A stretch of 40,328 bases of DNA from Leptotrichia sp. oral taxon 879 str. F0557 (GTDB lineage Bacteria; Fusobacteriota; Fusobacteriia; Fusobacteriales; Leptotrichiaceae), in NCBI RefSeq assembly GCF_000469385.1, contig NZ_KI271347.1, positions 1 through 40,328 on the forward strand, in the 5' to 3' direction. The notes beneath the pieces are model-generated. The model was given only the letters and a program-made list of their open reading frames with translations. It had not been told where the DNA came from and ran no database searches. Of the stretch, positions 11,604 through 29,415 are shown one piece after another. The position numbers were made by a program, and so were the translations under genes. Position 1 is the first letter of the stretch. Every line of letters begins with the position of its first letter.

Positions 11604-11614
11604 ACAAATATAGA

Positions 11615-12190: not shown

Positions 12191-12267
12191 ATATGTATTA
12201 GCTATAAAAGTTGAAATAATTATAGCTTTTGGATTTTTAGAAAAATTTAAATACACTTAAACATAGA

Positions 12268-12739: not shown

Positions 12740-12779
12740 ATACCCTATTTTTTACTTTAAAAAAAAGTTAGAAGGGTAT
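12740..12779 (+). promoter_or_regulatory. Leader hairpin just upstream of the autotransporter operon
   Basis: ATACCCT (12740-12746) pairs with AGGGTAT (12773-12779), and inside it ACTTT (12754-12758) pairs with AAAGT (12764-12768). The hairpin ends about 30 nt before the ribosome binding site of the first gene. There is no T run directly after it, so it is more likely a control or stability structure than a terminator. Confidence 0.5.
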
Positions 12780-12818
12780 GATATAAGGGAAATTAATTAA
12801 ATAAATTTGGAGGTATTT

Positions 12819-13148
12819 ATGAAAAGTAAACTAAAACTAATATTATTAGTAACTATGATTAATTTAAACTGTGTGAGCTATTTTTCTAATTTTTGTAAAG
12901 TGGCTGGAGAAAAGAATACAAGTAAAAAAAGAATTTGTACTTTTTATAAAGCAGGTAAAAAATTATTTGGTGAATCTAGTAAGGTACTTGGAATTGCACT
13001 TGATATGGGTATTAATGGAAATAGAGTTGTTAGTAAAAAGACAAAAGCAAAGACAAAGAAAGGTAAAAATTTAAAAACAGATGTTGAAAAGATAAGTAGT
13101 ACAGAAACTGCAAAAGAACCAAAGAGAAAAAATAAAAAACAAATATAA
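12819..13148 (+). CDS. Small basic exported protein preceding the autotransporter
   Basis: This 109-residue protein matches no family I can name. It begins with a signal-like segment (KSKLKLILLVTMINLNCVSY). A short middle part has cysteines and a KAGKKLFGESSKVLGIALDM helix. The tail is dominated by lysine (KKTKAKTKKGKNLK, then KRKNKKQ) and could bind nucleic acid, LPS or peptidoglycan. The ATG is chosen because GGAGG lies 5 nt upstream; an upstream in-frame TTG at 12807 precedes that site. The gene ends 29 nt before the autotransporter start and shares its transcript. The context suggests an accessory protein for the autotransporter, but this is inference only. Confidence 0.65.
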   Translation: MKSKLKLILLVTMINLNCVSYFSNFCKVAGEKNTSKKRICTFYKAGKKLFGESSKVLGIALDMGINGNRVVSKKTKAKTKKGKNLKTDVEKISSTETAKEPKRKNKKQI

Positions 13149-13177
13149 GATAAAGAATGAGTAAGGAGAGATCGAAT

Positions 13178-16100
13178 ATGAATAAAACAAAAAAATTAAT
13201 GTTAGCGATATTTTCGTTAATTGCTATTGTAAGTTGTGGAGAAGCAGGTAAAAGTGGTGATTCAGGAAGTGGTACATCAGCAACAACTCCTACTGCTCCT
13301 GTGACATCAGGACCCTCAACAAGTCCAGCGACGACAATAAGTAATATGCCAAGATTCATAAAAACAGACTTAAGTAAACTTGCTAATAATGTAGATATTT
13401 TTAAATATGCTGTTGTTGGAGAAAAATGGATCCCAAGTGCTCGAAATACAACTAGAACTCGTTATGAAGTTGGAAATCATCAAATCGGGCTTGAATTAAG
13501 CGGAAGTTCTTCATCTCCACTTACTGTAACTAGGTCAACAACGATTAATGTAAAAGCTGGTGGAGCAGCATTGAGTTTTGATTATTACAGAACTGCTGAA
13601 TCAAATTCAGATTTTGCTAATGCTCCTCAACTAGCTATGAGAAAATATTTAACTGAATATTTAAAGAATGCTAATAAGTTGACAATTAATATGGAACCAG
13701 GCTCATATTTATTTGTATTTAAAGGTATGGACGTAGAACTATCTAAAAATAATATTGCAAACCCTTTGTCCGCAGTTCCGGTAAGTTCAAGACCTACAAT
13801 TAATGGAACAGGATATAAAATATTTAAATTCGATAATTCTACACTTTCTATTGATCAAAATGTAAATTTAGATGATCCTAATGATTTGTATAATCAAGTA
13901 GAATTTACAAATACAAATACTCATGTTTTGAAAGATTTTAAAATTGTTGGAACTAAGGATAATCAAATCGGTATTAAAAGTACAGAGTCATTTGATAGAG
14001 GTGGATGGAATATTTCTAACTCAAATCAGGGTACAATTGACTTAAAGGGAAATAATACTGTTGGAGTTTACAATACACGTGCAAGTTTTACTAATTACTC
14101 TAACGGGAAGATTTCTGTAAATACAAATTCTATCGGTATTTATTCAATAGATAACAATATTTTAGGAAATTCAGCAGGTGAAATAGAAAATAATGGTCTT
14201 ATCAAACTGGGAGAAAGTTCTACAGGTATTTATTATGAAAAACGTTGGATTGATTATAATGGCAGTGTTCTTAATGATTATCTTGGAAAGATTGAAAGTA
14301 ATTCTAATAATGTTATTGGAATAAGTGCAAATGTTCGTAATCAAAAAAAAGATCCTTCATCTCCTATTTGGGTCGTTGATATAATTAGAAATTATGGAAA
14401 TATAAATTTAAATGGAGATAAATCAATTGGAATATATGCTGGTGGAGATGCTAATTATAATGCAATTAATGATGAACGGTATGGTAACGTAGGCGTAATT
14501 AAAATAGGCGATTCATTTGAAAAGAAGAATCCGAGCATGGGAATGTACAGTGATAATAAAAATGCAGTTTTAATAAATAAAGGAATTATTGAAATTGGGA
14601 AAAACTCTGTTGGTATGGCTGGATCCAAGAGCACTGTGCTAAATGATGCTGGAGGAATTATCAAAATTACTAAAGATGGTGGAGTTGGAATGTATTTAGG
14701 AGATGGTGCAGCAGGAACTAACAACGGAACTATAACTACTGTTGGCTCTCCAAAAAATGCAATTGGTGTAGTTGTTGGAAAAAATTCAGAATTTACAAAT
14801 AATGGAACGATTCATATTGATTCTGCTGGTGGTGCTGGAATTGTTATCGCTGGTGGTGTAGTTAAAAATTATGGAAATATTGAAGTTAGTGGCGGAGCTG
14901 TGAGAAGCCGTACTGACAATACATATACTGTAAAAGTTTTATCAAATAGAGTAAAGCCAGTAGATAGTGACTTAGGAGTTTATGTAGATACTCTAGGAAG
15001 AACAAAACCAATTGAAGGACTTTCTAACTTAGGATTAAAAAATGCTGATTTACTAATTGGTGCTGAAGCAACTGAAAAAACTAATGCAACAGAAGTAACA
15101 GTTGGAAATGATGTGCTTGATCCATTTAATAAATCTATTGAGGCAAGTAATATTGCGAACTGGAATGTAAAAACAGGTTCTTTAGTTTGGGAAGCTGATT
15201 CTGAAATTAAAAATAACAAAGTAGAAAAAGTTACTTTGAAAAAACAATCTTATGCCAAGTTTGCTGATAGTGAAACAACTGAGGAAGTAGCAAAAGGATT
15301 GGATGAAAAATATACTGAAACTACTGTGGACTCAAAAGATAAAGAAGTATTCAATTATTTGAATACATTAAATAATAGAAAATTATTAGCAAAAACTTAT
15401 AAAGAAATTGATGGAAATCAATATATCAATGTTCAACAAAGAATAGCACAAACTGATAATATTTTAGACAGCAAACTTTCTGATTTGCAAAAAGAAAATG
15501 TAGATAAATCTGGACATCATGTGTCTACTTTCTTTAATAAAGATAAACATGAAGCAAGAACTCCAGAAATAGCGAATACAAACAGCTCAGCTTACGGAAT
15601 TTCATATTTATTCAATAATGCTGATGCAAAACAGGGAATTTATGCTGGAACAGTTATTAACAACTTCAAATTTAAAGACAATGGAAAATCAAAAGAAAAT
15701 GTAACAATGTTTAAATTAGGTGCTTACAAGACATTTGACTTGAATAATCTTGAGTGGACTTTAAGCGGAGATGGATTTGTTTCTAAAAACGATATGAAGA
15801 GAAGATTTGTGATTGGAAATAATGTTTATGAAAATAAAGCTGGTTATAATGCTTATGGATTTGTATTGAAAAACGAATTTGGTAAAACTTTCAGCATTGG
15901 AGAAAATATTACGGTTAAACCTTATGCAGCTTTAAAACTTGGTTATGGAAGATTCTCGAAAATTAAGGAAAAAGATGGAACTTTGAATATGGAAGTTAAA
16001 GGAAATGACTTCTATTCTGTAAAACCATCTGCAGGAGTTGAATTTGGTTATTCTAATTCAATTACAGCAAATACTAAATTTAAGGCATCTTTAGGACTTG

Positions 16101-16330
16101 GCTATGAACATGAACTAGGAAAAGTTGAAAGCAAGGTAAATGAAGCTAAATTTGCGAACACAAGCACTAAAATCAACTTAAAAGGTGCAAAATACGAAAG
16201 ACGTGAAAATTTCAAAAGCAATGTAAAAGTTGGATTTGAAGCAGGAAACTTTGACCTTACAGTAAATGGTGGATATGATACGAAAGATAAAAATGCTCAC
16301 GTTGGTGTGGGACTTGGTGTTTCGTTTTAA
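13178..16330 (+). CDS. Autotransporter with an N-terminal lipoprotein signal
   Basis: This is a 1050-residue outer-membrane surface protein. Residues 1-20 form a lipoprotein signal ending in the lipobox AIVSC, with C20 as the predicted lipidated residue. A Ser/Thr/Pro/Gly linker follows (to about 55). The passenger has beta-helix-like turns with recurring NNGTI, NYGNI and NKGII motifs and GIY/GVG positions (about 270-580). The last ~270 residues form an autotransporter beta-barrel with strands such as AGVEFGYSN and GLGYEHEL, closing on GVGLGVSF with a terminal phenylalanine. AAGGAG is 9 nt before the chosen ATG; an in-frame ATG at 13157 lies upstream of that site. The role is probably adhesion or surface display. 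No protease motif is visible in the passenger. Confidence 0.85.
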   Translation: MNKTKKLMLAIFSLIAIVSCGEAGKSGDSGSGTSATTPTAPVTSGPSTSPATTISNMPRFIKTDLSKLANNVDIFKYAVVGEKWIPSARNTTRTRYEVGNHQIGLELSGSSSSPLTVTRSTTINVKAGGAALSFDYYRTAESNSDFANAPQLAMRKYLTEYLKNANKLTINMEPGSYLFVFKGMDVELSKNNIANPLSAVPVSSRPTINGTGYKIFKFDNSTLSIDQNVNLDDPNDLYNQVEFTNTNTHVLKDFKIVGTKDNQIGIKSTESFDRGGWNISNSNQGTIDLKGNNTVGVYNTRASFTNYSNGKISVNTNSIGIYSIDNNILGNSAGEIENNGLIKLGESSTGIYYEKRWIDYNGSVLNDYLGKIESNSNNVIGISANVRNQKKDPSSPIWVVDIIRNYGNINLNGDKSIGIYAGGDANYNAINDERYGNVGVIKIGDSFEKKNPSMGMYSDNKNAVLINKGIIEIGKNSVGMAGSKSTVLNDAGGIIKITKDGGVGMYLGDGAAGTNNGTITTVGSPKNAIGVVVGKNSEFTNNGTIHIDSAGGAGIVIAGGVVKNYGNIEVSGGAVRSRTDNTYTVKVLSNRVKPVDSDLGVYVDTLGRTKPIEGLSNLGLKNADLLIGAEATEKTNATEVTVGNDVLDPFNKSIEASNIANWNVKTGSLVWEADSEIKNNKVEKVTLKKQSYAKFADSETTEEVAKGLDEKYTETTVDSKDKEVFNYLNTLNNRKLLAKTYKEIDGNQYINVQQRIAQTDNILDSKLSDLQKENVDKSGHHVSTFFNKDKHEARTPEIANTNSSAYGISYLFNNADAKQGIYAGTVINNFKFKDNGKSKENVTMFKLGAYKTFDLNNLEWTLSGDGFVSKNDMKRRFVIGNNVYENKAGYNAYGFVLKNEFGKTFSIGENITVKPYAALKLGYGRFSKIKEKDGTLNMEVKGNDFYSVKPSAGVEFGYSNSITANTKFKASLGLGYEHELGKVESKVNEAKFANTSTKINLKGAKYERRENFKSNVKVGFEAGNFDLTVNGGYDTKDKNAHVGVGLGVSF

Positions 16331-16376
16331 AAGAAGTGAAAAATTATAAATAAAATATAGAAAGGAAGATTAATTT

Positions 16377-16805
16377 ATGAAAAAATTGATTTTATTAGGG
16401 AGTTTGATTATCTCAAGTTTTGTTTTTGGAAGACAGTATACTTTTATAGCAAAGAATGCTTATTGTACACAACCCGTATCGGAATATAATACTTTTACAT
16501 CTGTTGGTGAACTTGGATCTGGAACAGTATTTCCTTTTAGAAATTGTTATAATAATGGAAAAAAATTTAATTATCAAGGTACGTTTATTGTATCACCTAT
16601 GGATAAAAGTACTTATGATAAAATTATTAAACAAAATTATCCATATCTTTTTTTCAAAGATGGTTCAGAAATCCATGTAATAGAAGCTACAGCAAAATCT
16701 ACAAATGATGCAGGTTATTTTTTAATCGATATTAATGACGGCAAGAGCAATTTTTTGTTCTCACATAAATATGCGTATCCTAGTAGAAGTGATTGGGAAG
16801 ATTAG
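16377..16805 (+). CDS. Small secreted protein of unknown function
   Basis: This 142-residue protein has a clear signal peptide (KKLILLGSLIISSFVFG) with cleavage probably before RQYTF. The mature part is about 124 residues and contains two cysteines (in NAYCTQ and RNCYNN) that could form a disulphide. The rest is rich in aromatic and polar residues, for example NYPYLFFKDGSEIHV. I recognise no family. It follows the autotransporter by 46 nt with AAAGGAAG before its ATG and no terminator between, so it belongs to the same operon. The second palindromic element comes right after it. Confidence 0.65.
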   Translation: MKKLILLGSLIISSFVFGRQYTFIAKNAYCTQPVSEYNTFTSVGELGSGTVFPFRNCYNNGKKFNYQGTFIVSPMDKSTYDKIIKQNYPYLFFKDGSEIHVIEATAKSTNDAGYFLIDINDGKSNFLFSHKYAYPSRSDWED

Positions 16806-16844
16806 TTAATCTATAAAAATTTAGGCAATAAATTACTAAAATTT

Positions 16845-16916
16845 ATACTATTTCTCATTAAACATAATTAGATTTATCGTAAATATAATTTCTATTTTTT
16901 TAATGGGATTTAGTAT
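16845..16916. repeat. Palindromic intergenic element, copy 2
   Basis: The arms at 16845-16862 and 16899-16916 are inverted repeats matching at 15 of 18 positions. They share the ATACTA ends and the CAT...AAA core with copy 1 at 8741-8815. The loop is AT-rich and not conserved. The rest of the gap to the next gene (16917-17173) shows no promoter I can support and no gene. Confidence 0.6.
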
Positions 16917-17173
16917 TATGAAAACTTATTTTTTAAAAAAGAAACTAGCACTAAGTAGATAATTGTAATTTTAGAAGGAATTAATAATTATGTTTGGCAG
17001 CTTATAGTTTAAAATTATAAATTGCAAAATTTAACAGAAACAGCATATTTAATGTCTTTTAGAAAATATCTAGGGATATAAAAGAACTTAGGGATTTATT
17101 TATCAATATTTAATAAATTTTCAAATAGGATAAATCAAAAAAACAGGAATAAAGGACATGAAAGGAGAAAAAC

Positions 17174-19441
17174 ATGAAAAAACTGATAATAACGTTAAAT
17201 TTAATTTCAGTTATTGTCTATGGAGCAAGTGAGTTAAGATATGTTAACAGTCAAACATATACTCGGAATAAAGATGATTATATAGTATATAAAAAGAATG
17301 AGGCAAGAAAGTCTGGAATAAATGACTATATTGGACTTTTTGATGGAACAATAGACTTGGATGATGTGAGCAAACTAGCAGGAATTCCTTTTCCAAAAGT
17401 ATGGTATTTTCCAGGGGCAGAAAACGAGGAGTTTCAAAAGGTAAAAAAGGATAAAAGCAGTGATAATCATCTTTCATCAATGTTCCGTGCATTCATAATG
17501 ATGGTAGGAAATGATTGGGGGTCACAAAATTACGGAAGACTTTATACAAGTTCATTGCAGGGGGAAAATCAGGCTGTGATGCCTTATGGGATTGCACAAA
17601 GCTCATTGACGATTACTAACAACTATAGCGGGCATTTGACCTCGCAAGCTCCGTATTACGGAAATGTGATAAACGAGATGTCTGCATTGCCAATGACAGG
17701 CAGAAGAATGCTTGATGCAGATTATACTGAAAACGGAAACCTGTTCATACAAGCCATGGAGAATGAAACTCCAATAAATACTGTGAAACTACAGAAAAAT
17801 ACATCAGGAACGAAATCAGGTCTTGTGAATATTGATAATTACACGGCAGTATCAAGCGGATATGGAATAGAAGCTCAGAAACTCATGAGAGCTGAAAGCA
17901 TACATGTTATTCAGGAGATTTGCGGAGGATGGAGTAGAGGATGGGAACAAGGGGGAGACTACAAGAACAGCTGGAAAGATGTTACGACTCAAAGCTCAGG
18001 AGAAACTACCTTGGATTTTTTGGACAAAGAAAAAAAATTGAGAAATGGAAAGCTTGCCAAAATGGTGGAACATGGATACGCAAAGAATGAATGTGTGCTT
18101 TCATCCGAAAAGACGGATATTGCTTCACTACCCCTGTTGTCAAGAGCGCATACTGTGGTTGCCAATGGACAGGTATGGAATGGAAATAGGGTAACAAATG
18201 GAACTTCCTTTGCAGCTCCAAAGATTGCAGGACTTGCAGCTAAGATACAGGAGAAGTTTCCAGGGATGAGCTATCATCAAATCAAACAGCTGATACTTAC
18301 GACAGCAAACAGAACAGAAGACAGATTATCTAGTTTCATAGGGTGGGGTACGCTTAATGAAACTAAGGCATTGAATGGTCCTTCTATGCTTAATGCAGGA
18401 CTTATTGAGGAAGAAAAATTTTTTACAGGGATGTACGATAAAGTAATGGCAAAAGATGGAACTAAATTTTTTTGGGCTGAAGTTCCGCAAGGAGCAAAGT
18501 GGAAATGGAGCAACGACATATTTCCGGGATTTGAGGACAAACCTAGTGGATATGATACATTTGACACGGCTCTTACAGGGGAGCGTCCTGATGGAAGAAT
18601 GGCAAGTGCACTGAGTTATGCTTCTGTTGTTGAAGGAATAAATATTGCAAGATATGTACCTAATGAAAAGAACTTCTACTATGACGAAGATGACATGGAA
18701 ACAAGAGCAGGATTAAGAAAGGCTGGAAATGGAATATTGGAGCTTAATGCAAATTTGAGATACAGGGAAGTAACTCAAATTCTTCAAGGGAAATTTATCC
18801 TTAATGGAAACTCTGATAGTGAACTAAGAGTATTCAAAAACGCAACACTGGAAATCAATGGAAATAGGAATATCCAAAGTTTAATTGCTGATGGAGGAAA
18901 AGTGAGCCTTAATGGAAACATGACAATAAATCATTTTGGAATTGATTCAGGGGATATAAGTTTTTCTGGAAATATCACAATAAATAACCTTTATGTAAAA
19001 AATGAGGCAGAAAAACAGAAGTACATGTCAATGAAAAATCTTAAAATAGGTAAAGTGTTTTTTAGAGATTTTGAGCCTGTAAATGCGATAATTAATAATA
19101 AGAAGGTCGCAAATATTAAGCATGAATACTTTATGAATAATTTTTCTTCTTCCCCTAAGACTTTAGGGATATATGATATAGACAAGAAAGAAATTTTTGC
19201 GAAGATTAGGGAAAGATACAAAACAAATGCAGATTCTCCAAACAGGGAATATATTCCAGGATACAAAGATGGAGGATTTACAGCTGACAGAGATCCCGAC
19301 GCTGAAAGATTTAATTATAGATACTACCTAGGTGGTACAATGTGGTTCATGGGATTTAGTCCAAACCTTAAAACAACAGGTAAGGACTGGAAAATGTATG
19401 ACTATCAGGCAGTACAAGGAAAATTTAAAAAGATAGAATAA
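17174..19441 (+). CDS. Divergent subtilisin-like (S8) serine protease, exported
   Basis: This 755-residue protein has a signal peptide (KKLIITLNLISVIVYGASEL). The serine motif is clear: NGTSFAAPKIAGLAAKIQ with S345. The other two catalytic motifs are poor. D57 in IGLFDGTIDL is a plausible aspartate. H99 in DNHLSSM is a candidate histidine, but the usual HGT is absent. Downstream is a beta-helix-like stretch with repeated LNGN, INGN and FSGN turns (about 530-620), as in fusobacterial serine autotransporters. The protein ends without a recognisable membrane barrel. It may be a shortened autotransporter, a protein anchored by another route, or an inactive relative. Cleavage of surface proteins, possibly the autotransporter upstream, is a reasonable guess. 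Confidence 0.75.
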   Translation: MKKLIITLNLISVIVYGASELRYVNSQTYTRNKDDYIVYKKNEARKSGINDYIGLFDGTIDLDDVSKLAGIPFPKVWYFPGAENEEFQKVKKDKSSDNHLSSMFRAFIMMVGNDWGSQNYGRLYTSSLQGENQAVMPYGIAQSSLTITNNYSGHLTSQAPYYGNVINEMSALPMTGRRMLDADYTENGNLFIQAMENETPINTVKLQKNTSGTKSGLVNIDNYTAVSSGYGIEAQKLMRAESIHVIQEICGGWSRGWEQGGDYKNSWKDVTTQSSGETTLDFLDKEKKLRNGKLAKMVEHGYAKNECVLSSEKTDIASLPLLSRAHTVVANGQVWNGNRVTNGTSFAAPKIAGLAAKIQEKFPGMSYHQIKQLILTTANRTEDRLSSFIGWGTLNETKALNGPSMLNAGLIEEEKFFTGMYDKVMAKDGTKFFWAEVPQGAKWKWSNDIFPGFEDKPSGYDTFDTALTGERPDGRMASALSYASVVEGINIARYVPNEKNFYYDEDDMETRAGLRKAGNGILELNANLRYREVTQILQGKFILNGNSDSELRVFKNATLEINGNRNIQSLIADGGKVSLNGNMTINHFGIDSGDISFSGNITINNLYVKNEAEKQKYMSMKNLKIGKVFFRDFEPVNAIINNKKVANIKHEYFMNNFSSSPKTLGIYDIDKKEIFAKIRERYKTNADSPNREYIPGYKDGGFTADRDPDAERFNYRYYLGGTMWFMGFSPNLKTTGKDWKMYDYQAVQGKFKKIE

Positions 19442-19619
19442 TGAATCTTTTTAATTTATAGAATGATAGGAAATATTACTGAAAATACAGAATATCATAG
19501 TTTTTTAAAAAAGGACTTAGTTGATATTTTGAAAATTATTCTGATAAATCAAAAGATAATCAACATATGATTATAACTGATGTAAGGTTTGAATAAAAAA
19601 AATTGTATATTTAATTTTT

Positions 19620-19678
19620 AAGATATTTTTGTTATTAGAGTTACTATTGTAATTTTTAACTAAGATATCTTTTTTTTA
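19620..19678 (+). terminator. Probable terminator after the subtilase gene
   Basis: AAGATAT (19620-19626) pairs with ATATCTT (19665-19671). An inner GTTA/TAAC pairing is present and a T run follows to 19677. The loop is long, so confidence is moderate. Confidence 0.55.
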
Positions 19679-19814
19679 TTCAAAATTATTTAGAATCAGA
19701 TTTTATATAGTTTTGTTTTCTTCTTTAAATATTTAAATAATTATAATTATGTTTTATAAAAAAGAAATAAAAGTATAAAAATTACAAAATAATTTATTAT
19801 TTTAAATAAAAGTG

Positions 19815-19843
19815 TTGATAAAAAACAAAATATATATTATAAT
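19815..19843 (+). promoter_or_regulatory. Promoter of the M48 protease/DKNYY operon
   Basis: TTGATA (19815-19820) and TATAAT (19838-19843) are 17 bp apart. The transcript would begin near 19850 and first meet a short ORF at 19930 before the protease gene. Confidence 0.75.
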
Positions 19844-19929
19844 TACTTTATAAAAATACAGAAATAAAATTATGTTATTGCTAATAGAAATTTCTATAAA
19901 AAAATTAATTAAGAAAGGAGGTTAGATTT

Positions 19930-19971
19930 ATGAAATTTAATTTTACCAATGAATTTAATTTATTGTGTTGA
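19930..19971 (+). CDS. Possible 13-codon ORF with a very strong ribosome binding site
   Basis: AAGGAGG (19915-19921) lies 8 nt before an ATG that opens a 13-residue frame (MKFNFTNEFNLLC) ending in TGA. It is the best Shine-Dalgarno match in this region and sits on the leader of the next operon. It could be a leader peptide, a small protein, or the start of a lost gene. No other feature explains this ribosome binding site. Confidence 0.4.
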   Translation: MKFNFTNEFNLLC

Positions 19972-20049
19972 TAATGAAAAATATTAAAATTATTAATTTT
20001 TGATTGTAACTGAATAATAAAACAAATAACTAAGTTAGGAGAGATTAGA

Positions 20050-20253
20050 ATGTATTTTATTGATTTTTTTAAAAAAGTATTTAAGTTAAAAAATATTGGG
20101 ATAATTGTATGGATGGTAATAAATTTATATATAATAATTAGTTTTTTTCCAACAACTGAAGGAGTCACAAATGGCTCTGAGGCATTAGTGGCCATAATTC
20201 GAGGAGTTATTGTATATGCGATTTGTAGCGTTGGCATTATCTCCAATAGGTGA
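20050..20253 (+). pseudogene. N-terminal fragment of an M48 metalloprotease, cut off by a frameshift
   Basis: The 67-codon frame encodes the amphipathic start and first membrane helix typical of HtpX-like proteases (IGIIVWMVINLYIIISFF) and then a second hydrophobic stretch. It is terminated by TGA at 20251-20253. The rest of the protease continues in the +1 frame from about 20210. Removing one base near 20220 would join the two frames into one protein with an uninterrupted second helix running into ALSPIGEAI. AGGAG is 8 nt before the ATG, so this is the natural start of the gene. A sequencing error is possible. Confidence 0.7.
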
Positions 20254-21928
20254 GGCGATTTTTAGGTCAATGAACGGATGTAGAGAAATTGTTGATTCAT
20301 CCATTCTTAACCGATTGACACCATTATTTAATGAAATTTATGAAAAAGCTAAGTTAAAAGATCCGAATTTGTCACAGAACATTAAACTGTACATCGTAGA
20401 CCAGCCCTATCCAAATGCCTTTGCACTTGGAAGAAATACAGTTTGTGTAACAAACGGACTGTTGCATCTGGATGATGCTGAAATAAAAGGTATTTTTGCT
20501 CATGAGTTTGCACATCTGTCAAATAAAGATACAGATATTGCGTTGTTTATATATGTAGGAAATTTACTTGCTTCGTTGATGTTTCTTATTCTTAGAGTCA
20601 TACTTTTTATAATAAGTTTTCTTATGATAAGTTTTTCTGAATCAAACAGCACATATGAAACGTATGATGCTTATGGAAGACGACAAAGAAAAAAAGGTGG
20701 AGCTTTAAAAGGATTTGTCTTGGCAGCAGGTCTTGATATGATTTATGTGGCGATAATTGGACTATATACAAAATTAGGAATAATTTTAGTAAGTCATTCA
20801 AGCAGAAATCATGAATTTGCAGCAGATAAATTTGCGTATAACTTGGGGTATGGAAGGGAGTTAAGAGACGCTTTGGTAGAATTGCAGGGAGAAGCTGAAA
20901 AGCCAACAGGCTTTGTAGCAAACCTTATGGCAACTCATCCTAAAACAGCATTAAGAATTGAAAAATTAAATATGTATTTATCAGGAAATTTTGATGATGA
21001 TTTGAATAAATCTATAGATGAAGAGCCACAAACATCAAATGACAAAACTGACACAGCTGATTATAATACAAGTAAAACAGATTATTCATCAGCTAGTTCA
21101 AACGATACGGCTTCCTTTAACAAAGAAGAGAGAAAATATTCAGTTGATTCCAATGACACAATGAGACAGCCAACAATTAACGGTGTAATTTTTATTGATG
21201 ATGATATAAATTCTGATAAAAATATCAATAATATTAAGAATCAGAAAATTATAAACGAAAGAACAACAGCTTCAAATACAGCAACTTTTAATAAAAATGA
21301 AGAAAAAATTAGTTCAACTGATGTATCAAAACAGCATAATGATACAACTTTCAGGGAAGATAATAGCAAAAAGGGTAGTTATGAAAAAATAGAGGATACA
21401 AAAGCAAAAACGAAAGTGGAAGTGACTAGCTCAAGTCAAAAAAATAATGATAGAATATTTTATATAGGATTATTTGCTTCAAGTTTTATTCAAATTATTC
21501 CAGCGATTTTTACAAAGACTGCTTTTTTGTTACTTAATGTTGGAGTTATATTTGGTGATAAATTCCAGCTATATGACTTAGCTATAAGCATTACTTATTT
21601 TGCCGATGCACTTGGTGAAGTATTTGATAAGATAATATATTTATTTACACGAGAATTATATTTAGCATGTGATATAATTTTAATATTATTATCAATACTA
21701 ATAATTATAAAATTAAATAAAGAAAACAGGGGAAATGAATTAAAACGAATAAATTATTTATCAGCAATAGTTGGGAGCTGTATGCGTATTTTTATTCGAA
21801 TAGCAAGTTATTATTATATAATGGATTTAAAGAATTTAGATAATTTGTGTGATGTTATTTTATTAATATCAGCTATCACAAATGGAATTCTTATCTTCAA
21901 AAGAAAAAAGAACAATAAAAAATATTAA
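20216..21928 (+). CDS. htpX: M48 family membrane metalloprotease (HtpX-like), catalytic part
   Basis: This is a zinc endopeptidase of the inner membrane, of the kind that degrades misfolded membrane proteins. The zinc site is complete: HEFAH (H96, E97, H100) and the third ligand E200 in RNHEFAADKFA. Two membrane helices lie at about 115-140 and 165-190. After the protease domain comes a ~150-residue low-complexity linker rich in S, T, N and D. It is followed by a C-terminal hydrophobic region with several helices, which standard HtpX proteins lack. The N-terminal anchor is in a different frame just upstream. GAGGAG at 20201-20206 is 9 nt before this ATG, so the catalytic part might still be translated alone; a TTG at 20210 is the other option. 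Confidence 0.75.
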   Translation: MRFVALALSPIGEAIFRSMNGCREIVDSSILNRLTPLFNEIYEKAKLKDPNLSQNIKLYIVDQPYPNAFALGRNTVCVTNGLLHLDDAEIKGIFAHEFAHLSNKDTDIALFIYVGNLLASLMFLILRVILFIISFLMISFSESNSTYETYDAYGRRQRKKGGALKGFVLAAGLDMIYVAIIGLYTKLGIILVSHSSRNHEFAADKFAYNLGYGRELRDALVELQGEAEKPTGFVANLMATHPKTALRIEKLNMYLSGNFDDDLNKSIDEEPQTSNDKTDTADYNTSKTDYSSASSNDTASFNKEERKYSVDSNDTMRQPTINGVIFIDDDINSDKNINNIKNQKIINERTTASNTATFNKNEEKISSTDVSKQHNDTTFREDNSKKGSYEKIEDTKAKTKVEVTSSSQKNNDRIFYIGLFASSFIQIIPAIFTKTAFLLLNVGVIFGDKFQLYDLAISITYFADALGEVFDKIIYLFTRELYLACDIILILLSILIIIKLNKENRGNELKRINYLSAIVGSCMRIFIRIASYYYIMDLKNLDNLCDVILLISAITNGILIFKRKKNNKKY

Positions 21929-21960
21929 ATTATTTAAAAAATGTGGTTGGAGGGATTTTT

Positions 21961-23904
21961 ATGAAGAATAAATTTTTTAGAGTTATATTAGGGGTATTTG
22001 TTTTAGCGAATCTGGGAATGGCGGAATATGTGAAAAGGAATAATGAAATTTATTATAAGTATTCTAAAGAAGACGATATAGGGATTAAGGTAAAAAATGT
22101 TAATTTAAATACATTTAAAATATTGAATGATAGATATGCAAAAGATGATAAAAGTGTTTATTTTTCAGGAAATAAATCGTTTGAAGATGTGGACAGTAAA
22201 ACTTTTGAAGTGCTGCCAAACTATTATTCAAAAGATAAAAATAATGTTTATAGGCCAATTAATGAATGGATCCGCAAAATAAATGGAGCAAATCCAAAAA
22301 CAATAAAAGCTTTGGGTTATTTTTATTCAAAAGATGATAAAAATGTGTTCTATGGTTCAGATAAAATTTTAAATGCAGATGTAAATTCGTTTGTGGTTTT
22401 GGAGGGAGACCATAGTTATGCAAAAGATAAAAATTCAGTCTATTATTCAGGAGAAAAAATTGAAGGTGCGAATCCAAAAACATTTAAAATAATTTCGGAT
22501 GGAATGTATTCAAAGGATGATAAAAATGTGTATGCGACAGTAGACATTATAAAAGGTGCAGATCCTCAAACTTTTAGAAGAATTTCTGAAACAAATTATG
22601 CCAGAGATAAGAATAACCTGTATTATTACTTTGGAGAGGTTAAAAATCTTGGAAAAATAAATGAAAAAGATTTTAAAGTTTTGGATAGTGATTTGGTTAA
22701 AAATGGAAATGAAATCTACTATTTGGGAGAAAAAGCGAATATAAAAAATCCTGAAAAATTTGAACCAATAAAAGCTTCAGATGATAAACGTATTCTTTAT
22801 GGAAAAGATGATGAAAATGTATATGCAGTAACGTCAGATGAAAAGCATGGATATTTTAAGGTTATAAAAAATGCTGATAAAGATACTTTTGAAGTAATGG
22901 AGAAAGATACCAGATATTCAAAAGATAAAAATAATGTTTATTATGCAGGGTATAATGTTGTGCAGTTACAGGATGCAGATAAAAATAGTTTTACTATTGT
23001 AGAAGATGAAGATTTTTCATACGATAAAAAAAATGTTTATTATGCAGGAAGAAAACTAAATGATATAAGTCCAAATGGCTTTAAAGTTACAAGACTGGTT
23101 AATAGACGAAATATACCGCTTAATTTTTTAAATGACAATAAGAATATATACAAACTTATTGACATATTTGATGAAGAAACTGGCGAGCTGAAAAGTGTAA
23201 AAACAGCCGTTGTAAAAAATCCTAAGGTAGATTCTAAAACTTTTGAAATATTTAGTTATTCGGAAAATTATTTCCGTGATAAAAATAACGTGTATTATGA
23301 AAATGAATTGTATAAAATGGGCTTGAAAAAAATAGAAGGTGCAGATAGAAACAGTTTTGAAGTTTTGAATGATGAATTTTCAAAAGACAAAAACAATGTC
23401 TATTATTATGGAAATAAAATGAAAGGTATAAGTCCAGTTGGATTGGAGTTTGTGGATAGTAACTTTAAAAATGGTGAAGATATTATTTCTTTTTTTAAAA
23501 CTAAAGATAAAGTTTATGCCTTGAAAACTAGAACTGGTAAAGAAGCATACGAAATAGTCCCTTTAAATTTTGACGCAACTTCTTTTAAAGATTCCAATGC
23601 TGATTATCCGTATGGATCTAAATTTGAGGGTTATTTTCAGGACAAAAACGGAGTTTATTATTTTGACATGTCTAAATTGGATAAATTAACTCCAAATAAT
23701 ATTTTTTCAAAAGTAGAAGGTGCTGATACTTCGTCATTTGTACAGTTAATGTTTGGTTATGCAAAGGATAAGAACAAGGTATATCGTGGGAATCAGGAAA
23801 TTAAAGGTGCAGATCCAGAAAGTTTTAAAATAATTGAGACAAGCGGGAAAGTTATAGTAAAGGATAAAAATAGGGCTTATAGGGAAATAAAAGAAGAATT
23901 TTAA
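21961..23904 (+). CDS. Exported DKNYY-repeat protein
   Basis: This 647-residue protein has a signal peptide (RVILGVFVLANLGMAEYV). It then consists almost entirely of DKNYY units, about fifteen copies of a YxKDKNNVYYxG motif alternating with GADxxTFxxL segments. The repeats probably form an extended beta-rich fold. The family is common in envelope proteins of Gram-negative bacteria and its function is not established. The ATG is chosen because GGAGGG lies 6 nt upstream; an in-frame GTG at 21943 precedes that site. It follows the M48 protease by 32 nt without a terminator, so the two are likely co-transcribed. Confidence 0.85.
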   Translation: MKNKFFRVILGVFVLANLGMAEYVKRNNEIYYKYSKEDDIGIKVKNVNLNTFKILNDRYAKDDKSVYFSGNKSFEDVDSKTFEVLPNYYSKDKNNVYRPINEWIRKINGANPKTIKALGYFYSKDDKNVFYGSDKILNADVNSFVVLEGDHSYAKDKNSVYYSGEKIEGANPKTFKIISDGMYSKDDKNVYATVDIIKGADPQTFRRISETNYARDKNNLYYYFGEVKNLGKINEKDFKVLDSDLVKNGNEIYYLGEKANIKNPEKFEPIKASDDKRILYGKDDENVYAVTSDEKHGYFKVIKNADKDTFEVMEKDTRYSKDKNNVYYAGYNVVQLQDADKNSFTIVEDEDFSYDKKNVYYAGRKLNDISPNGFKVTRLVNRRNIPLNFLNDNKNIYKLIDIFDEETGELKSVKTAVVKNPKVDSKTFEIFSYSENYFRDKNNVYYENELYKMGLKKIEGADRNSFEVLNDEFSKDKNNVYYYGNKMKGISPVGLEFVDSNFKNGEDIISFFKTKDKVYALKTRTGKEAYEIVPLNFDATSFKDSNADYPYGSKFEGYFQDKNGVYYFDMSKLDKLTPNNIFSKVEGADTSSFVQLMFGYAKDKNKVYRGNQEIKGADPESFKIIETSGKVIVKDKNRAYREIKEEF

Positions 23905-23942
23905 ATTGCACAGAAAAAGTTAGTGAAATTTAGTGATAAATA

Positions 23943-23951
23943 TGCTATAAT
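23943..23951 (+). promoter_or_regulatory. Extended -10 promoter of the chaperone cluster
   Basis: TGCTATAAT (23943-23951) is an extended -10 element. No good -35 is present at the usual distance, as expected for this class. It lies about 90 bp before the GrpE-like gene. Confidence 0.55.
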
Positions 23952-24039
23952 ACAATAAATTGTCTAAATGTATTAAAAACATATTTAATATTAAATATAA
24001 TTTGGTAAGAAATTAAGGATACATGAAAGGACAATGATT

Positions 24040-24633
24040 ATGGAAGCGGAAAAAATTGAGAAAAGGGGCGTATCAAAAATATTTCATCCAGCTTTAAAAA
24101 ATGAAGCAGTAAAATTGGATGCTGAAGAAAAAAGTGTATTTGAAGAGATTCAGGAACTTAATGAAAAAATGGATGTTATGAATGATACGGTTTCTCAAAA
24201 AATCTTAAATATAGATTTTGAAAAAAATATAGTCGACAAATTGCACAAGGAACTTCAAGACTATAAAGATGATCTTTATTTTCAGCTTATAAAACCTCTT
24301 ATAATGGATTTGATAAATATGAGGGAAAGGATGAGAAGAGCTGTAAAACATTCTTCCAAAGAAACTGATGAAAAAAAAGTTGAAATGCTTGAAAGTTATG
24401 TGGAAGAAATTGAAACTATTTTAGAAAATAATAATATAGAAATTTACGAAACTAAAAAAGAAAAAGATGATTACAAGGTAAAGAAACAACGTATAGTAAA
24501 ACAAATAAAAACATCAGATGAAAAATTACATGGAAAAATTTGTAATATTTTAACGAATGGATATATTTATACAGAAAAAAATAAAATTATCTTTCCAGAA
24601 AAAGTAGAAGTATATGTTTATAAAAACAATTAA
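24040..24633 (+). CDS. GrpE-like nucleotide exchange factor of an accessory Hsp70
   Basis: This 197-residue protein probably releases ADP from the Hsp70 encoded next. It has the GrpE plan: a long charged coiled coil (about 25-80), a central helical part with DYKDDLYFQLIKPLIMDLIN, and a C-terminal beta part (NGYIYTEKNKIIFPEKVEV) that resembles the GrpE wing ending in GY...RPAxVxV. The similarity is in layout rather than strict identity, and the N-terminal ~20 residues are not typical. The ATG at 24040 has GAAAGG at a normal distance; the ATG at 24034 is too close. The stop codon directly abuts the reading frame of the Hsp70 gene, which indicates one operon. The genome presumably has its main grpE elsewhere. 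Confidence 0.65.
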   Translation: MEAEKIEKRGVSKIFHPALKNEAVKLDAEEKSVFEEIQELNEKMDVMNDTVSQKILNIDFEKNIVDKLHKELQDYKDDLYFQLIKPLIMDLINMRERMRRAVKHSSKETDEKKVEMLESYVEEIETILENNNIEIYETKKEKDDYKVKKQRIVKQIKTSDEKLHGKICNILTNGYIYTEKNKIIFPEKVEVYVYKNN

Positions 24634-24651
24634 ATGAAAGGAAGAATAAAA

Positions 24652-26298
24652 ATGTCAAAATATGTATTTGGAATTGATTTAGGAACAACATATTCTTGTA
24701 TAGCTCGTGTAGATGAAACAGGAAGAGCAGAAGTGATTAAAAACTTAGAAGGCGAAAACATAACACCTTCTGTAGTAGCTTTTGAAGATAATAGTGTAAT
24801 CGTGGGAAGCGATGCAAAAGAAGAATCAAGCATAAAGCCAGAAACAACAGTGTTATTAGTAAAATCTTACATGGGGAAAAAAACTAGCATGCTTGATTAT
24901 AATGGCGAGCCTAAAATGCCGGAAGAAATTTCATCATATATTTTAAAAAAACTTGCAAGAGATGCTTCGGAACGGCTTGGAGTCGAAGTGAGAGATGTTG
25001 TGATAACTTGTCCTGCATATTTTGGAACAGCAGAACGTACAGCTACTAAAAATGCTGGTAAAATTGCTGGATTGAATGTTTTAGAAATTATAAGCGAACC
25101 GACAGCTGCAGCAATATATTATGGCTGCACAAGAAAACATGATGAAAAGACAGTTCTAGTGTATGATCTTGGTGGAGGAACGTTTGATGTTACAGTTATG
25201 AGAATAAGTGCTGATAAGATAGAAGTTATATGTTCTGACGGAGATCATGATTTAGGCGGTAAAAATTGGGATGAAACATTAATGTCTTATTTAATTAATC
25301 AGTTTAGTGAAAAAGTTGGATATGAAGTGGAACCAGATGAATACTTGGATCAGAGATTAAGGGAACTGGCTGAAAAATTAAAAAAGAGATTAACTTCAAG
25401 CACTAAAGCAAGTGGAATACTGGAAGGTGATGGAAGGCAGGAAAAATTAACAATAACTAGAGAAGAATTTGAGAGAATGACATCGGTATATCTTAGAGAA
25501 ACAATGAATAAAGTGGACTCTGTACTTGAAATAGCGCAAAGTAAAGGATATCAAGTTGATGAAGTTCTTTTGGTTGGGGGATCAACAAGAATGCCTCAAA
25601 TAAAGGAAACGCTGGAGAAAAAATTTGAAAAAGAAAAAGTTCAGTTTCTTGAACCTGACGAAGCTGTAGCTAAAGGAGCCGCAATTCATGCTGTGAATGT
25701 TTATGTAAATAATCAGAAAAATCTTACCGAAAAGGATTTTGAATCTGAAGAAGACGTGCAAGTAAATATTGATGGAGATATAAAAGAGTTAAATGCAAAA
25801 GACTATAAGGAAAAATTAAGTTTTTCTCCAGAAATAATGAGTCTAGGAGGTAAGGCAAGGGAAGTTGTTATGGCAACAACAAAAAGCTTTGCATTAAATC
25901 CTATTGTAAATGGTAAACAGATTGGTTATAATATGATTATAAAGAATCAGCCTTTAAATAACGGTTTTTTAGAAGTTTCAAAAGTTTTTGGAACTTATCT
26001 TGAAAATCAAGAAAGTGTAAATATAGCAATATATGAAAATGACAGTATGGAAGAGTATTTTGAATTGGAGGAAAATTTGAAACTAGGAGATATAAATTTG
26101 GAATTGCCTAAAATTCTTCCAAAACAATCTCCAATAGAAATAACTTTAAAATTAACTAAAGAGGGAATCCTTGAAGTAAAGGGACTTGACAAAACTAGTA
26201 ATAAGGAAGTAAAGGTTGAGATGAATACAAAAGGGATTATGTCGAAAGATGAACTGGAGAAAATAAAACTTAAGGTTCAAGGTATAACATTAATATAA
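24652..26298 (+). CDS. Accessory Hsp70 (DnaK-like) chaperone without a lid domain
   Basis: This 548-residue protein has a complete Hsp70 ATPase domain (1-375): phosphate loop FGIDLGTTYSC, ISEPTAAAIYYG, second phosphate loop VYDLGGGTFDV and adenosine motif VLLVGGSTRMPQI. The interdomain linker and the start of the substrate domain are unusual. The normal DVTPLSLG is replaced by an acidic insertion of about 45 residues leading to IMSLGGKAREVV. The beta-sandwich follows, but the chain ends after NTKGIMSKDELEKIK, so the helical lid is missing. It is about 90 residues shorter than DnaK. Its neighbours supply an exchange factor and a J-like protein. It is probably a specialised chaperone with its own clients and not the housekeeping DnaK. 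Confidence 0.88.
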   Translation: MSKYVFGIDLGTTYSCIARVDETGRAEVIKNLEGENITPSVVAFEDNSVIVGSDAKEESSIKPETTVLLVKSYMGKKTSMLDYNGEPKMPEEISSYILKKLARDASERLGVEVRDVVITCPAYFGTAERTATKNAGKIAGLNVLEIISEPTAAAIYYGCTRKHDEKTVLVYDLGGGTFDVTVMRISADKIEVICSDGDHDLGGKNWDETLMSYLINQFSEKVGYEVEPDEYLDQRLRELAEKLKKRLTSSTKASGILEGDGRQEKLTITREEFERMTSVYLRETMNKVDSVLEIAQSKGYQVDEVLLVGGSTRMPQIKETLEKKFEKEKVQFLEPDEAVAKGAAIHAVNVYVNNQKNLTEKDFESEEDVQVNIDGDIKELNAKDYKEKLSFSPEIMSLGGKAREVVMATTKSFALNPIVNGKQIGYNMIIKNQPLNNGFLEVSKVFGTYLENQESVNIAIYENDSMEEYFELEENLKLGDINLELPKILPKQSPIEITLKLTKEGILEVKGLDKTSNKEVKVEMNTKGIMSKDELEKIKLKVQGITLI

Positions 26299-26317
26299 AA
26301 ATTATTTTTATAAAATG

Positions 26318-26359
26318 CTCAAGTTTTTTAATATCTAAATTGATATTATGGAATTTGAG
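26318..26359 (+). terminator. Imperfect hairpin after the Hsp70 gene
   Basis: CTCAA (26318-26322) and TTGAG (26355-26359) enclose AATATC (26330-26335) and GATATT (26342-26347). A T-rich tract follows. It may terminate or attenuate before the J-like gene. TATAAT at 26388-26393 lacks a clear -35, so a promoter in this 200-bp gap is uncertain. Confidence 0.4.
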
Positions 26360-26498
26360 TAAATTTTTATTTGTTAATCATAGATTGTATAATAATTGCG
26401 AGAAATTTAAAATTACTATTTGAATTGTAATGTGGCAGTTTAATTTTAATGTAGTTTTGCTGAATTTGAATAAATAAGAATGCAAAGGAGAATATACA

Positions 26499-27503
26499 GT
26501 GTCAAAAGAAATAAAAGATAATTGGTATGTAGTATTGGGATTGGATTTTTATCCTATTGCTGAGGAAAATGAAGAAATTATAAAGAATAGAATAGAAGAA
26601 AAGAAATCTGAGTGGGAAAGAAGGAAAGTTCGTGCTTATAATAAAGAAAATTTTATAAGATACATTAATTCATACGACACTATAAAAGAGGAAATGTTAG
26701 GGAGTAATAATATAAGAAAAGAATTAATAGAAGATGCCATCGCTCCTGTAGACAATGCTTTAAAAATGGGAGAAGGAAGCATTAAAGTCTTTACAGATGA
26801 TATTATAAAAAAAATTTCAAGGGAAACAAAGAGAAGTGAGAAAGTCGTAAGACAAAGAATTATGGAAAATCCTAATTTTGAATTGTATGATGAAACAATT
26901 TACAATGATTATCTTAACATTATTAAAAATAAGACTGATTTTGAAATAATAGAAAAATCATTAAAAATATTGAATAGCAAAGATATTTATAGCTTTTTGA
27001 GTTCTCAAAATTTAAAATTTGAAACTTTAGATAACAGTATTATAAATAAAGAAAGGAAAAAACTGACAAATCTTCATAATAATATTTCTTCTGCTAAAAA
27101 CAAATTATATAGTCAAATTGAAAATATGGTTAACAATAATGAAGAAAAACAAAAATATGATAAATATTTAAAGTATAGTAAAGTAATGAAAGAGCTAAAT
27201 TATGTAAAAATATACAAAAACGGAACTGTAGGAATTAAACCTGTTCAAAACATCAAAAAAATATTAGGCAATGAAAAAGAAGCAACTAATATTTTTATAG
27301 GCTTTTGTGAAGAAAATAATATTGCATACAATCTTTCGAATAACTCGGATACAGTAATTTCAGATACTTTAGATGATGAAAATGAAAATTTTAAAATTAC
27401 ATCTGATAATAAACAGACTAACTATATGATCAGATATGTTGTGGCTTTAGCAGTATTCGCTTTAGGAGTTTTTGTAATAAATACATATTTTATAGGAATA
27501 TAA
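26499..27503 (+). CDS. Tail-anchored J-like co-chaperone lacking the HPD motif
   Basis: This 334-residue protein starts with a J-domain-like segment (DNWYVVLGLDFYPIAEE, then helices with IEEKKSEWERRKVRAY and FIRYINSYDTIKEEML). The normal HPD tripeptide between helices 2 and 3 is absent. A long helical middle region follows. The C-terminus is one transmembrane helix (YVVALAVFALGVFVINTYF) with only a few residues after it, so the body would be cytoplasmic and tail-anchored. The start is a GTG with AAAGGAG 8 nt upstream. Its position after the GrpE-like and Hsp70 genes suggests it recruits this Hsp70 to the membrane. The J-like assignment rests on the start motif and context only. Confidence 0.55.
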   Translation: MSKEIKDNWYVVLGLDFYPIAEENEEIIKNRIEEKKSEWERRKVRAYNKENFIRYINSYDTIKEEMLGSNNIRKELIEDAIAPVDNALKMGEGSIKVFTDDIIKKISRETKRSEKVVRQRIMENPNFELYDETIYNDYLNIIKNKTDFEIIEKSLKILNSKDIYSFLSSQNLKFETLDNSIINKERKKLTNLHNNISSAKNKLYSQIENMVNNNEEKQKYDKYLKYSKVMKELNYVKIYKNGTVGIKPVQNIKKILGNEKEATNIFIGFCEENNIAYNLSNNSDTVISDTLDDENENFKITSDNKQTNYMIRYVVALAVFALGVFVINTYFIGI

Positions 27504-27513
27504 AAGAATAATT

Positions 27514-27535
27514 ACATAGTATTCTGTGTTTTTTT
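27514..27535 (+). terminator. Terminator after the J-like gene
   Basis: ACATAG (27514-27519) pairs with CTGTGT (27524-27529) through a TATT loop, including one G-U pair, and a T run follows to 27535. Confidence 0.65.
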
Positions 27536-27536
27536 G

Positions 27537-27545
27537 TGTTATAAT
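27537..27545 (+). promoter_or_regulatory. Extended -10 promoter of the HsdS-like pair
   Basis: TGTTATAAT (27537-27545) is an extended -10 located right behind the terminator and 35 bp before the HsdS-like start. The pair therefore has its own transcription unit. Confidence 0.55.
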
Positions 27546-27579
27546 AAATATGGAAAAAATAAAATAAGAAGAGGTAGAA

Positions 27580-28167
27580 ATGAAATTAGGAGATAATGTA
27601 GATATAATAGCGCCATTAAACGTAAAAACGGCTGATTCTGAAACAGGATATTTTTTACTAAATCCAACAATGATAAGCAACGGAAAAATAGAAACTTTTG
27701 ACTATGCAGAAGTTCCAGACAGATATAAAAATGGAAAAAATAAAATAGCCGATAAGTATTTTATAAAAAAGGATGATGTGCTATTTCAAGCTAAAGGAAG
27801 TAAAATAGATGTAGTGTATGTAGATAAGGATTATGAAAAAGTTCTTCCATCAACACTTTATTTTATTTTAAGACCAAATGAAAAAATAAATCCCAAATAT
27901 CTTCAATGGCTTTTAAAAACAGAACTGGTATTATTGTATTTTGAAAAGAAATATAAAACAATGGGGACTGTTAGGGCTGTGAACAAGGGAGACATAGTGG
28001 ACCTGAATGTGAAGATACCCGAAAGAAAAATTCAGGACGAAATGGCTAAAATAATAACAAGTTTTGAAGAGGAAGAATACAGTACAATGAAATATTTAAA
28101 CATAAAAAGAAAGTACATTGAAGAAAGAGTTATTGAAAACAATCAGGTGATAATAGATGAAGAATAA
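27580..28167 (+). CDS. Single-TRD HsdS-like (type I restriction specificity) protein
   Basis: This 195-residue protein looks like one half of a type I specificity subunit. It has one target-recognition domain (about 1-150): KLGDNVDIIAPLNVKT at the start, then DKYFIKKDDVLFQAKGSK, LPSTLYFILRPNEKINPKYL and the end motif VNKGDIVDLNVKIPERKIQ. A single helical conserved region follows. Full HsdS proteins have two such units and about 400 residues. It would bind DNA, probably as a dimer. No hsdR and no intact hsdM are present. The stop codon overlaps the next gene by 11 nt, which indicates tight coupling with that gene. Confidence 0.65.
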   Translation: MKLGDNVDIIAPLNVKTADSETGYFLLNPTMISNGKIETFDYAEVPDRYKNGKNKIADKYFIKKDDVLFQAKGSKIDVVYVDKDYEKVLPSTLYFILRPNEKINPKYLQWLLKTELVLLYFEKKYKTMGTVRAVNKGDIVDLNVKIPERKIQDEMAKIITSFEEEEYSTMKYLNIKRKYIEERVIENNQVIIDEE

Positions 28168-29290
28168 ATTTTTTAAAGTTATGAGCGAAGAACTTGAAAA
28201 TGAAAAAAAATCAAAAAAAATAGATATACTTAAAACATCATTATTTTTATATATGACTGTAATAAGTAAAGTTCTTTATGAAGAACTGGAAGTTTTGAAA
28301 AATAGTAATTATTTATTTTTAGAATATTTAAATAATATAGGTTTTACGTACAATTTAAAAGAAAATTATTTGAAAAATATGAAGAATCTATCAAGTAAAA
28401 TAAAGATATTTGAAGATACCTATAAAGCTATAGAAAGTCGTTTGAACAGGGAAGAGCTGATTGAAGATGCAGGAGCTATGGAAATAGATCTTAAACTAGA
28501 CATTTTCAGAGGACAATGTGTAAAAATAGCTAAGAATTATATTGATAAAATAATCAACAGCGCAGTAATACCTAATGACAACACAGTTCAGCTGTTATCA
28601 GAAATTCTTGGAATAAAAAATAACGAAATTTTATATGCTATAAATTTTTTTGAAGAAAACATGTTTTATGATTACGAAATACCAAAAAATGAAATAGATA
28701 CTATTACTGATATTTTATTTTCCATAGCTAATTTAAAAAAGAAAGAAAAAATATCAATAATTTTAACAAAAGAAATAACATCAAAAGAATTAATATATGA
28801 ATCAATAAAAAATAATAAAAAAGGCATAGTGGAGAAAAGCGTTATTGATTCGTTAACTTTAGAAGAAAAAGAGGGATTAGTAAAGTCAGATAAAATTCAA
28901 TGCGTAATATCTGTACCGTTTAATAATGTATTAAAGAATCAAGTAATAATATTTAACGAAGAAAAAGAAGAAAAAGAACATATATTATTTGTTCAAACAC
29001 AAGATTTTTTTGAAAAAGGGAATGAAAAAATTAAAGTTGAGAACTTTAAGGAATTGTTAAAAATTCTTGATGAAAAAGAGGAAGTTAATGGAGTCTTAAA
29101 ATCAGTTTCCAATGATGCAGTATTAGAGAAAGAATGTAATTTTGATATTTTAAATTATGTCTTTAAAATAAAGGAAAAAATTAATTTGGAAGAATTAATG
29201 GCAGAAAAGGATGAAAGTTATAAAATAATGATAGAAAAAAGAGAAAAATGTGATAAGTTATTAAGAGAATCTTTAGAGGTAAAAAAATAG
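28157..29290 (+). CDS. Unknown protein with an HsdM-like C-terminal half but no methylase motifs
   Basis: This is a 377-residue protein. Residues 1-190 are helical and I do not recognise them. The C-terminal half follows the pattern seen after the catalytic core of type I methyltransferases. DKIQCVISVPFNNVL resembles the 'LIeaVIxLP' strand, then come HILFVQTQDFFEKGNEK, an 'eEi' segment and CNFDILNYV, and finally a charged helix (EELMAEKDESYKIMIEKREK) like the one that contacts HsdS. The SAM-binding DPxCGSG and catalytic NPPY/F motifs are absent, and the core is too short to contain them. It overlaps the HsdS-like gene by 11 nt. A catalytically dead partner of that protein is a plausible reading, but an unrelated function is possible. 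Confidence 0.5.
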   Translation: MKNKFFKVMSEELENEKKSKKIDILKTSLFLYMTVISKVLYEELEVLKNSNYLFLEYLNNIGFTYNLKENYLKNMKNLSSKIKIFEDTYKAIESRLNREELIEDAGAMEIDLKLDIFRGQCVKIAKNYIDKIINSAVIPNDNTVQLLSEILGIKNNEILYAINFFEENMFYDYEIPKNEIDTITDILFSIANLKKKEKISIILTKEITSKELIYESIKNNKKGIVEKSVIDSLTLEEKEGLVKSDKIQCVISVPFNNVLKNQVIIFNEEKEEKEHILFVQTQDFFEKGNEKIKVENFKELLKILDEKEEVNGVLKSVSNDAVLEKECNFDILNYVFKIKEKINLEELMAEKDESYKIMIEKREKCDKLLRESLEVKK

Positions 29291-29315
29291 ACATTATTTT
29301 ATTCCGCTTTTTAGG

Positions 29316-29356
29316 CTTTTTCAATATTTTACAAATCTTTTTTTTAGTGATATAAT
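29316..29356 (+). promoter_or_regulatory. trpS promoter (repeated promoter module, copy 2)
   Basis: TTTACA (29328-29333) and TATAAT (29351-29356) are 17 bp apart. The surrounding 41 bp match the block at 9958-9998 at 38 positions. The leader before trpS is short and shows no T-box or attenuator. Confidence 0.82.
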
Positions 29357-29415
29357 ACAGATATGTTTTTAAAAATATAAGTATCTGTTTAATAATATAA
29401 ATTATGGAGGTTTTT

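Follow-up and report, generated by a model that had tools for sequence, protein, structure and literature searches.

A half-S subunit and an HsdM-fold pseudo-methylase that move together with Hsp70-like genes in Leptotrichia: a candidate DNA-binding arm of a chaperone module

Introduction

Type I methylases are usually seen only as enzymes. The closest described arrangement to the gene pair reported here is that of the 'Type 1 1/2' methyltransferases M.AhdI, M.BsaBI and M.PshAI, in which M and a half-S subunit with one recognition domain are encoded by separate genes (PMC3874165). Enzymes built on a half-S are assemblies of 2M+2S, and a likeness between half-S dimers and transcription factors has been pointed out (PMC3874165, PMC6158711). 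In the Type I HsdM/HsdS/HsdR systems, represented by EcoR124, PacII and EcoKI, S carries two recognition domains, and a third kind of relative is formed by Esub1 (PDB 8vsq, 8vsr) and by Firmicutes M~half-S proteins annotated as 'N-6 DNA methylases', in which both parts are fused in one chain beside a complete Type I system.

We analysed a 40,328-nt stretch of Leptotrichia sp. oral taxon 879 str. F0557 (contig NZ_KI271347.1, positions 1 to 40,328; hereafter the window), which contains a half-S gene (S) coupled to an HsdM-like gene (M). The pair shares with the 'Type 1 1/2' enzymes the separate half-S and M genes, the single recognition domain per S and the HsdM fold, but its M lacks the SAM and catalytic motifs, no Type II nuclease is adjacent, and its neighbours are Hsp70 genes. 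It likewise shares the fold of M and of half of S with the Type I systems, whereas none of their defining traits was found, namely an HsdR in the locus, a two-domain S, or a catalytic M with motif I and NPP(Y/F). With Esub1 and the Firmicutes fusions it has in common the one-domain half-S and, in the three fusions read, a degraded motif IV; unlike those fusions, the Leptotrichia pairs are two chains and are not sited beside a full Type I system, and M is only distantly similar.

Results

S (27580..28167, + strand) encodes a 195-aa HsdS-like half-subunit with a Methylase_S match (PF01420, 37.7 bits against a Pfam cut-off of 22, E 3.1e-9). Its AF2 model (pLDDT 89.6) comprises a single target-recognition domain followed by a long 40-residue dimerisation-type helix (residues 149-188), in agreement with the one recognition domain of the original prediction. 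In a Foldseek search of this model, Esub1 was the best match (E 1e-10, TM 0.77, 15% identity), followed by BsaXI, PacII and other S subunits, which places S in the Esub1-like half-S fold. A PDB sequence search with S additionally returned polyubiquitin hits; these were rejected as an artefact of weak repeat scores that added up. The M gene (28157..29290, + strand; 377 aa) starts within the end of S, and the ORF positions confirmed the coordinates and frames reported earlier as well as the 11-nt overlap between the S stop and the M start (ATGAAGAATAA, 28157..28167, + strand), which is kept at 12/12 Leptotrichia loci.

The AF2 model of M (pLDDT 87, pTM 0.81) has a methylase fold, so that this check did not go against the earlier reading. 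Its best PDB matches were Type I HsdM in every case, aligned from residue 1 to residue 339 or 373, with PacII HsdM as the top match (Z 15.7 over 301 residues, model range 1-339), and the structural comparison extended over the N-terminal helical domain of HsdM. Because HsdM structures align from residue 1, the helical N-terminal half, which had been taken to be novel, is better described as a diverged HsdM N-terminal domain. The HsdM-like pattern proposed for the C-terminal part was borne out by a PF02384 match at positions 198-308, above cut-off in the genome profile search (a plain hmmscan on the window copy alone gave no match), and by a match of the M family profile to EcoR124 HsdM (E 1.5e-11, residues 238-371). 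Motifs were read from an alignment of the Leptotrichia M proteins with an intact HsdM from the same genome as the window (L063), three M proteins of another Fusobacteriota family and three Firmicutes fusions. Motifs X, I (SAM) and IV (NPPY) are missing from every Leptotrichia M, which extends to the whole family the motif loss first noticed in the window copy, and all of them also lack about 50-60 residues surrounding the catalytic loop, while Rossmann-like strands are partly retained in the model. As modelled, M is a complete HsdM fold with a shrunken methylase core, in which the N-terminal helices and the C-terminal S-binding part are retained.

The pair family has 12 loci in 9/13 Leptotrichia genomes; G000, G069 and G070 hold two apiece. 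Identities to the window proteins are 74-99% for intact S copies and 41-98% for M copies. Between corresponding loci, dN/dS ranges from 0.015 to 0.053 for S and from 0.06 to 0.19 for M; by this measure purifying selection acts on both genes, and more strongly on S. The recognition domain of S is the most conserved part (mean pairwise identity 89%) and the pseudo-core of M the least conserved large part (48%), a pattern that, as far as sequence comparison goes, is the one expected of a fixed-specificity DNA-binding complex with a disused active site. Two copies are damaged: M is frameshifted in G071, and S is broken in G080 by an insertion carrying a TnpB-like gene. The broken pair of G080 follows a gene for a 546-aa Lon-like AAA protease (L030:4645-6285) rather than Hsp70 and J-like genes, again a protein quality control function. 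An intact hsdM in place of the pair, which would have pointed to simple decay, occurs in none of the 13 Leptotrichia genomes. The inspected 50 ORFs of the window include no HsdR-like one, as had been stated for the surroundings of the pair. Strict peptide patterns, run against species genomes and viral contigs, matched only L. hongkongensis (G071, JMUB5056) and gave no viral relative of the pair, which, with patterns of this strictness, is no proof of absence outside Fusobacteriota; plasmids searched for M gave no match.

Directly 5' of the pair lies an operon that the original prediction overlooked, although it is the best clue to the task of S and M. It encodes a GrpE-like protein (24034..24633, + strand; 199 aa, PF01025 E 9.8e-10), a short Hsp70-like protein (24634..26298, + strand; 554 aa, PF00012 E 1.4e-112) and, adjoining S, a 334-aa J-like protein (26499..27503, + strand) with a C-terminal membrane helix at about 314-332 by hydropathy. 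The label 'J-like' refers to position and a short N-terminal pattern, with no Pfam J-domain match; the family is present in 10/13 Leptotrichia genomes, with one strong membrane helix in every protein scanned. A search of other genomes for recurrent neighbours returned these same genes: at 10/12 loci the pair lies 3' of Hsp70-like and J-like genes, at three chromosomal positions, namely P1 beside trpS (G000, G069, G070), P2 beside an endonuclease/exonuclease/phosphatase-type (EEP) gene (G000, G070, G071, G072, G076, G078) and P3 beside a saccharopine-dehydrogenase-like gene (G069, where one small gene separates J from S). At the two remaining loci (G077, G080) the pair is away from Hsp70 genes. 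This type of Hsp70 (59-100% identity to the window protein, versus about 45% for DnaK) is present in 9/9 pair-bearing genomes. Among the four pair-less genomes, G074 carries the Hsp70 operon, this Hsp70 type is missing from G075 and G079, and G073 has only a 39% Hsp70 relative on an element with recombinase genes. The resulting co-occurrence (one-sided Fisher p = 0.014, uncorrected for kinship, 13 genomes of one genus) overstates the association, because the loci are not independent. Inter-locus distances of S or M correlate with those of Hsp70 or J at 0.88-0.97.

A vacant P2 site is preserved in G079, where malQ and the EEP gene lie about 270 nt apart. The left flank of the G071 locus matches this empty site up to the -10 of the EEP promoter and its right flank resumes just behind M, while in G000 the match on the right begins again at the stop codon of M; about 20 nt of the empty site are shared by both flanks. 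Since the flanks match in this way, Hsp70, J, S and M entered P2 as a single four-gene insert ending with M, which in G071 separates the EEP gene from its promoter, and at the level of sequence the G079 empty site is the strongest evidence for the proposed chaperone link.

Several further features of this neighbourhood were observed. The GrpE-like gene is nearly identical between G000 and G069 (dS 0.01), whereas its neighbours have dS 0.4-0.5, which suggests recent recombination or transfer of this gene. In G071, G072 and G078, trpS adjoins a ROK kinase gene, and the roughly 19.5 kb that separate the two in the window (9862-29404) are therefore accessory; this segment contains autotransporter, S8 protease-like, M48 peptidase and DKNYY genes besides the Hsp70 operon and S-M. 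At 10131-12190 the window holds three clearly related ORFs in tandem (215, 213 and 191 aa) that have a hydrophobic stretch at the N-terminus. In the P3 J-like protein of G069 (L026:9284-11242) the membrane helix is followed by a terminal YARHG domain, as though the protein sensed something beyond the cytoplasm.

S is preceded by a pair-specific, promoter-like extended -10 block (ATAGTATTC-N12-TGTTATAAT; 27516..27545, + strand). The form ATRGTATTC-N12-TGNTATAAT is kept at all three positions though the surrounding sequence has diverged, and in the 2.4-Mb genome the pattern has exactly two occurrences, each preceding a pair, against 0 for the reversed control. The block may be a promoter with a regulator's site. 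The claim that the pair has its own terminator-bounded promoter therefore holds for the promoter-like block and not for the terminators: none was detected on either side of the pair, and the sole terminator-like site between 26500 and 30500 lies at 30443, behind trpS. No palindrome is common to all promoter blocks; CCATA-N6-TATGG was considered and rejected, being perfect in some P2 loci and absent in P1 and P3.

Motif loss is graded among the relatives of M. The intact reference L063 has FTP, DPTCGSG and NPPY, whereas motif IV reads NPPF in G030 (C48), DPPY in G006:C3 and HIPF in G006:C8, the three loci of the other Fusobacteriota family. There, PF02384 covers most of its domain (156-163 bits), compared with the C-terminal third only in Leptotrichia M. 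By hhalign the Leptotrichia M family matches these proteins over residues 40-372 (E 5.5e-13), an alignment that likewise speaks against a novel N-terminal half; kinship with the Firmicutes fusions is much looser (E 0.009). The G006 and G030 pairs resemble those of Leptotrichia in S-M gene order and in a half-S 43-45% identical to S, and G006:C3 also has the 11-nt overlap; they differ in a longer M (425-434 aa) that keeps motif I, with NPPF or DPPY in 2/3, and in their location, which is within restriction or defence islands rather than next to Hsp70 genes. The graded motif loss and the hhalign kinship indicate that M derives from a short HsdM that partnered a half-S in a 'Type 1 1/2' arrangement. 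This ancestor was probably an active methylase, because one relative still keeps NPPF and one DPPY. The window's own genome also holds an intact HsdM gene (L160:8499-10073) without an obvious adjacent HsdS, followed by ORFs of 308 and 1359 aa.

Discussion

We propose, at about even confidence, that S and M form a non-catalytic clamp of fixed specificity, which would serve as the DNA-binding arm of a chaperone module and bring transcription under chaperone-gated control. On the model of natural and engineered half-S enzymes, two copies of S would pair via their helices and each carry one M, giving an M2S2 clamp that would sit on a split, symmetric DNA site; because half-S subunits dimerise and support M2S2-like enzymes, a non-methylating clamp on such a site is the natural reading (PMC3874165, PMC6158711). 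The clamp would bind without methylating, as M has no SAM pocket and no catalytic loop, and would not cut, as there is no HsdR. The pair would belong to a mobile module with the short Hsp70 and the membrane-anchored J-like protein, often joined by the GrpE-like one, and would most likely be its DNA-binding arm. We infer that S and M assemble, bind DNA and contact Hsp70 or the J-like protein with a regulatory output, such that the chaperone may load, release or remodel the clamp at fixed chromosomal sites and thereby control transcription. Chaperone-controlled repressors are known, in that DnaK controls HspR and GroEL controls HrcA. These DNA-binding proteins are likewise encoded with a chaperone operon, a comparison of working principle only, since they are not homologous to S-M and no CIRCE operator was matched in the window at up to three mismatches. 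The original suggestion of a DNA-binding complex recruited for a new task is in keeping with the retained fold, the lost motifs, the purifying selection and G069, which has two pairs and no full HsdM; silencing, named there as an example, is one of several tasks left possible. The pair-less Hsp70 operon of G074 and the Hsp70-distant pairs of G077 and G080 weigh against the proposed link.

A defence module, in which the S-M clamp reads a fixed motif on invading DNA or decoys phage anti-restriction proteins and signals via Hsp70 and the membrane-anchored J-like protein, is possible, though we consider it rather unlikely. The pair is accessory and mobile. Outside Leptotrichia its closest relatives are located in restriction or defence islands, and one of them neighbours both a full HsdM-HsdS-HsdR set and a Z1 helicase similar to MzaC. 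The structure of Esub1, to which S is structurally most similar, was determined in complex with the phage protein Prx; DnaJ-dependent phage sensing is moreover known for bNACHT25 (PMC12169576). The module, however, contains no nuclease, toxin or other effector, its recognition domain is under strong purifying rather than diversifying selection, and PADLOC gave no match for M, the J-like or the GrpE-like protein. We rank chaperone-gated transcription control first and anti-phage sensing or decoy second because the module lacks an effector gene and its specificity is not diversifying.

The remaining explanations concern what became of the methylase itself. The two damaged loci and the lost catalytic motifs would fit a functionless, decaying relic carried along with Hsp70 genes, but ten further loci keep both frames open and have dN/dS values far below 1, and the deletions are common to all members, so the loss is old; a relic is accordingly improbable. 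It is more improbable still that S acts in trans, lending an additional specificity to an active HsdM or a full Type I enzyme resident in the genome: half-S proteins are able to work with full HsdM (PMC6158711) and several Leptotrichia genomes have an intact HsdM elsewhere, yet S is translationally coupled to its own M in all cases, and G069, with its two pairs, has no N6_Mtase match (E 1e-10) beyond them, that is, no full-length HsdM, for which reason a resident HsdM as required partner was rejected in this genome. It is hardly credible that M remains active as a methyltransferase with atypical motifs: some Rossmann-like strands are left in the model, but no Leptotrichia member retains any of the three motifs or the catalytic-loop residues, and conservation is lower in the pseudo-core than elsewhere.

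Under the preferred reading, a chaperone-linked S-M clamp, S-M would be a natural 'dead' methylase used for DNA binding, and the fact that it moves together with a short Hsp70 and a membrane-anchored J-like protein points to concrete partners and offers a first lead on the role of such short-Hsp70 operons. More tentatively, and with less than even confidence, we suggest an undescribed system in which these two proteins act on a dead Type I methylase clamp at fixed DNA sites, as a chaperone-gated, sequence-specific switch made from restriction-modification parts; for the terms tried, a literature search gave no paper that links Hsp70 to half-S or dead HsdM. Pseudo-methylases beside Type I systems possibly form a wider class, and the parallel loss of motif IV in the Firmicutes fusions suggests a recurring class of half-S pseudo-methylases annotated as active enzymes. 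In the three Firmicutes or viral-contig M~half-S 'N-6 DNA methylases' that were read (L157:2624-4426, L158:2609-4438 and L159:3795-5390), motif IV is degraded to VPPF, FPPI and SVPT, and each fusion lies directly 5' of an intact HsdM and HsdS.
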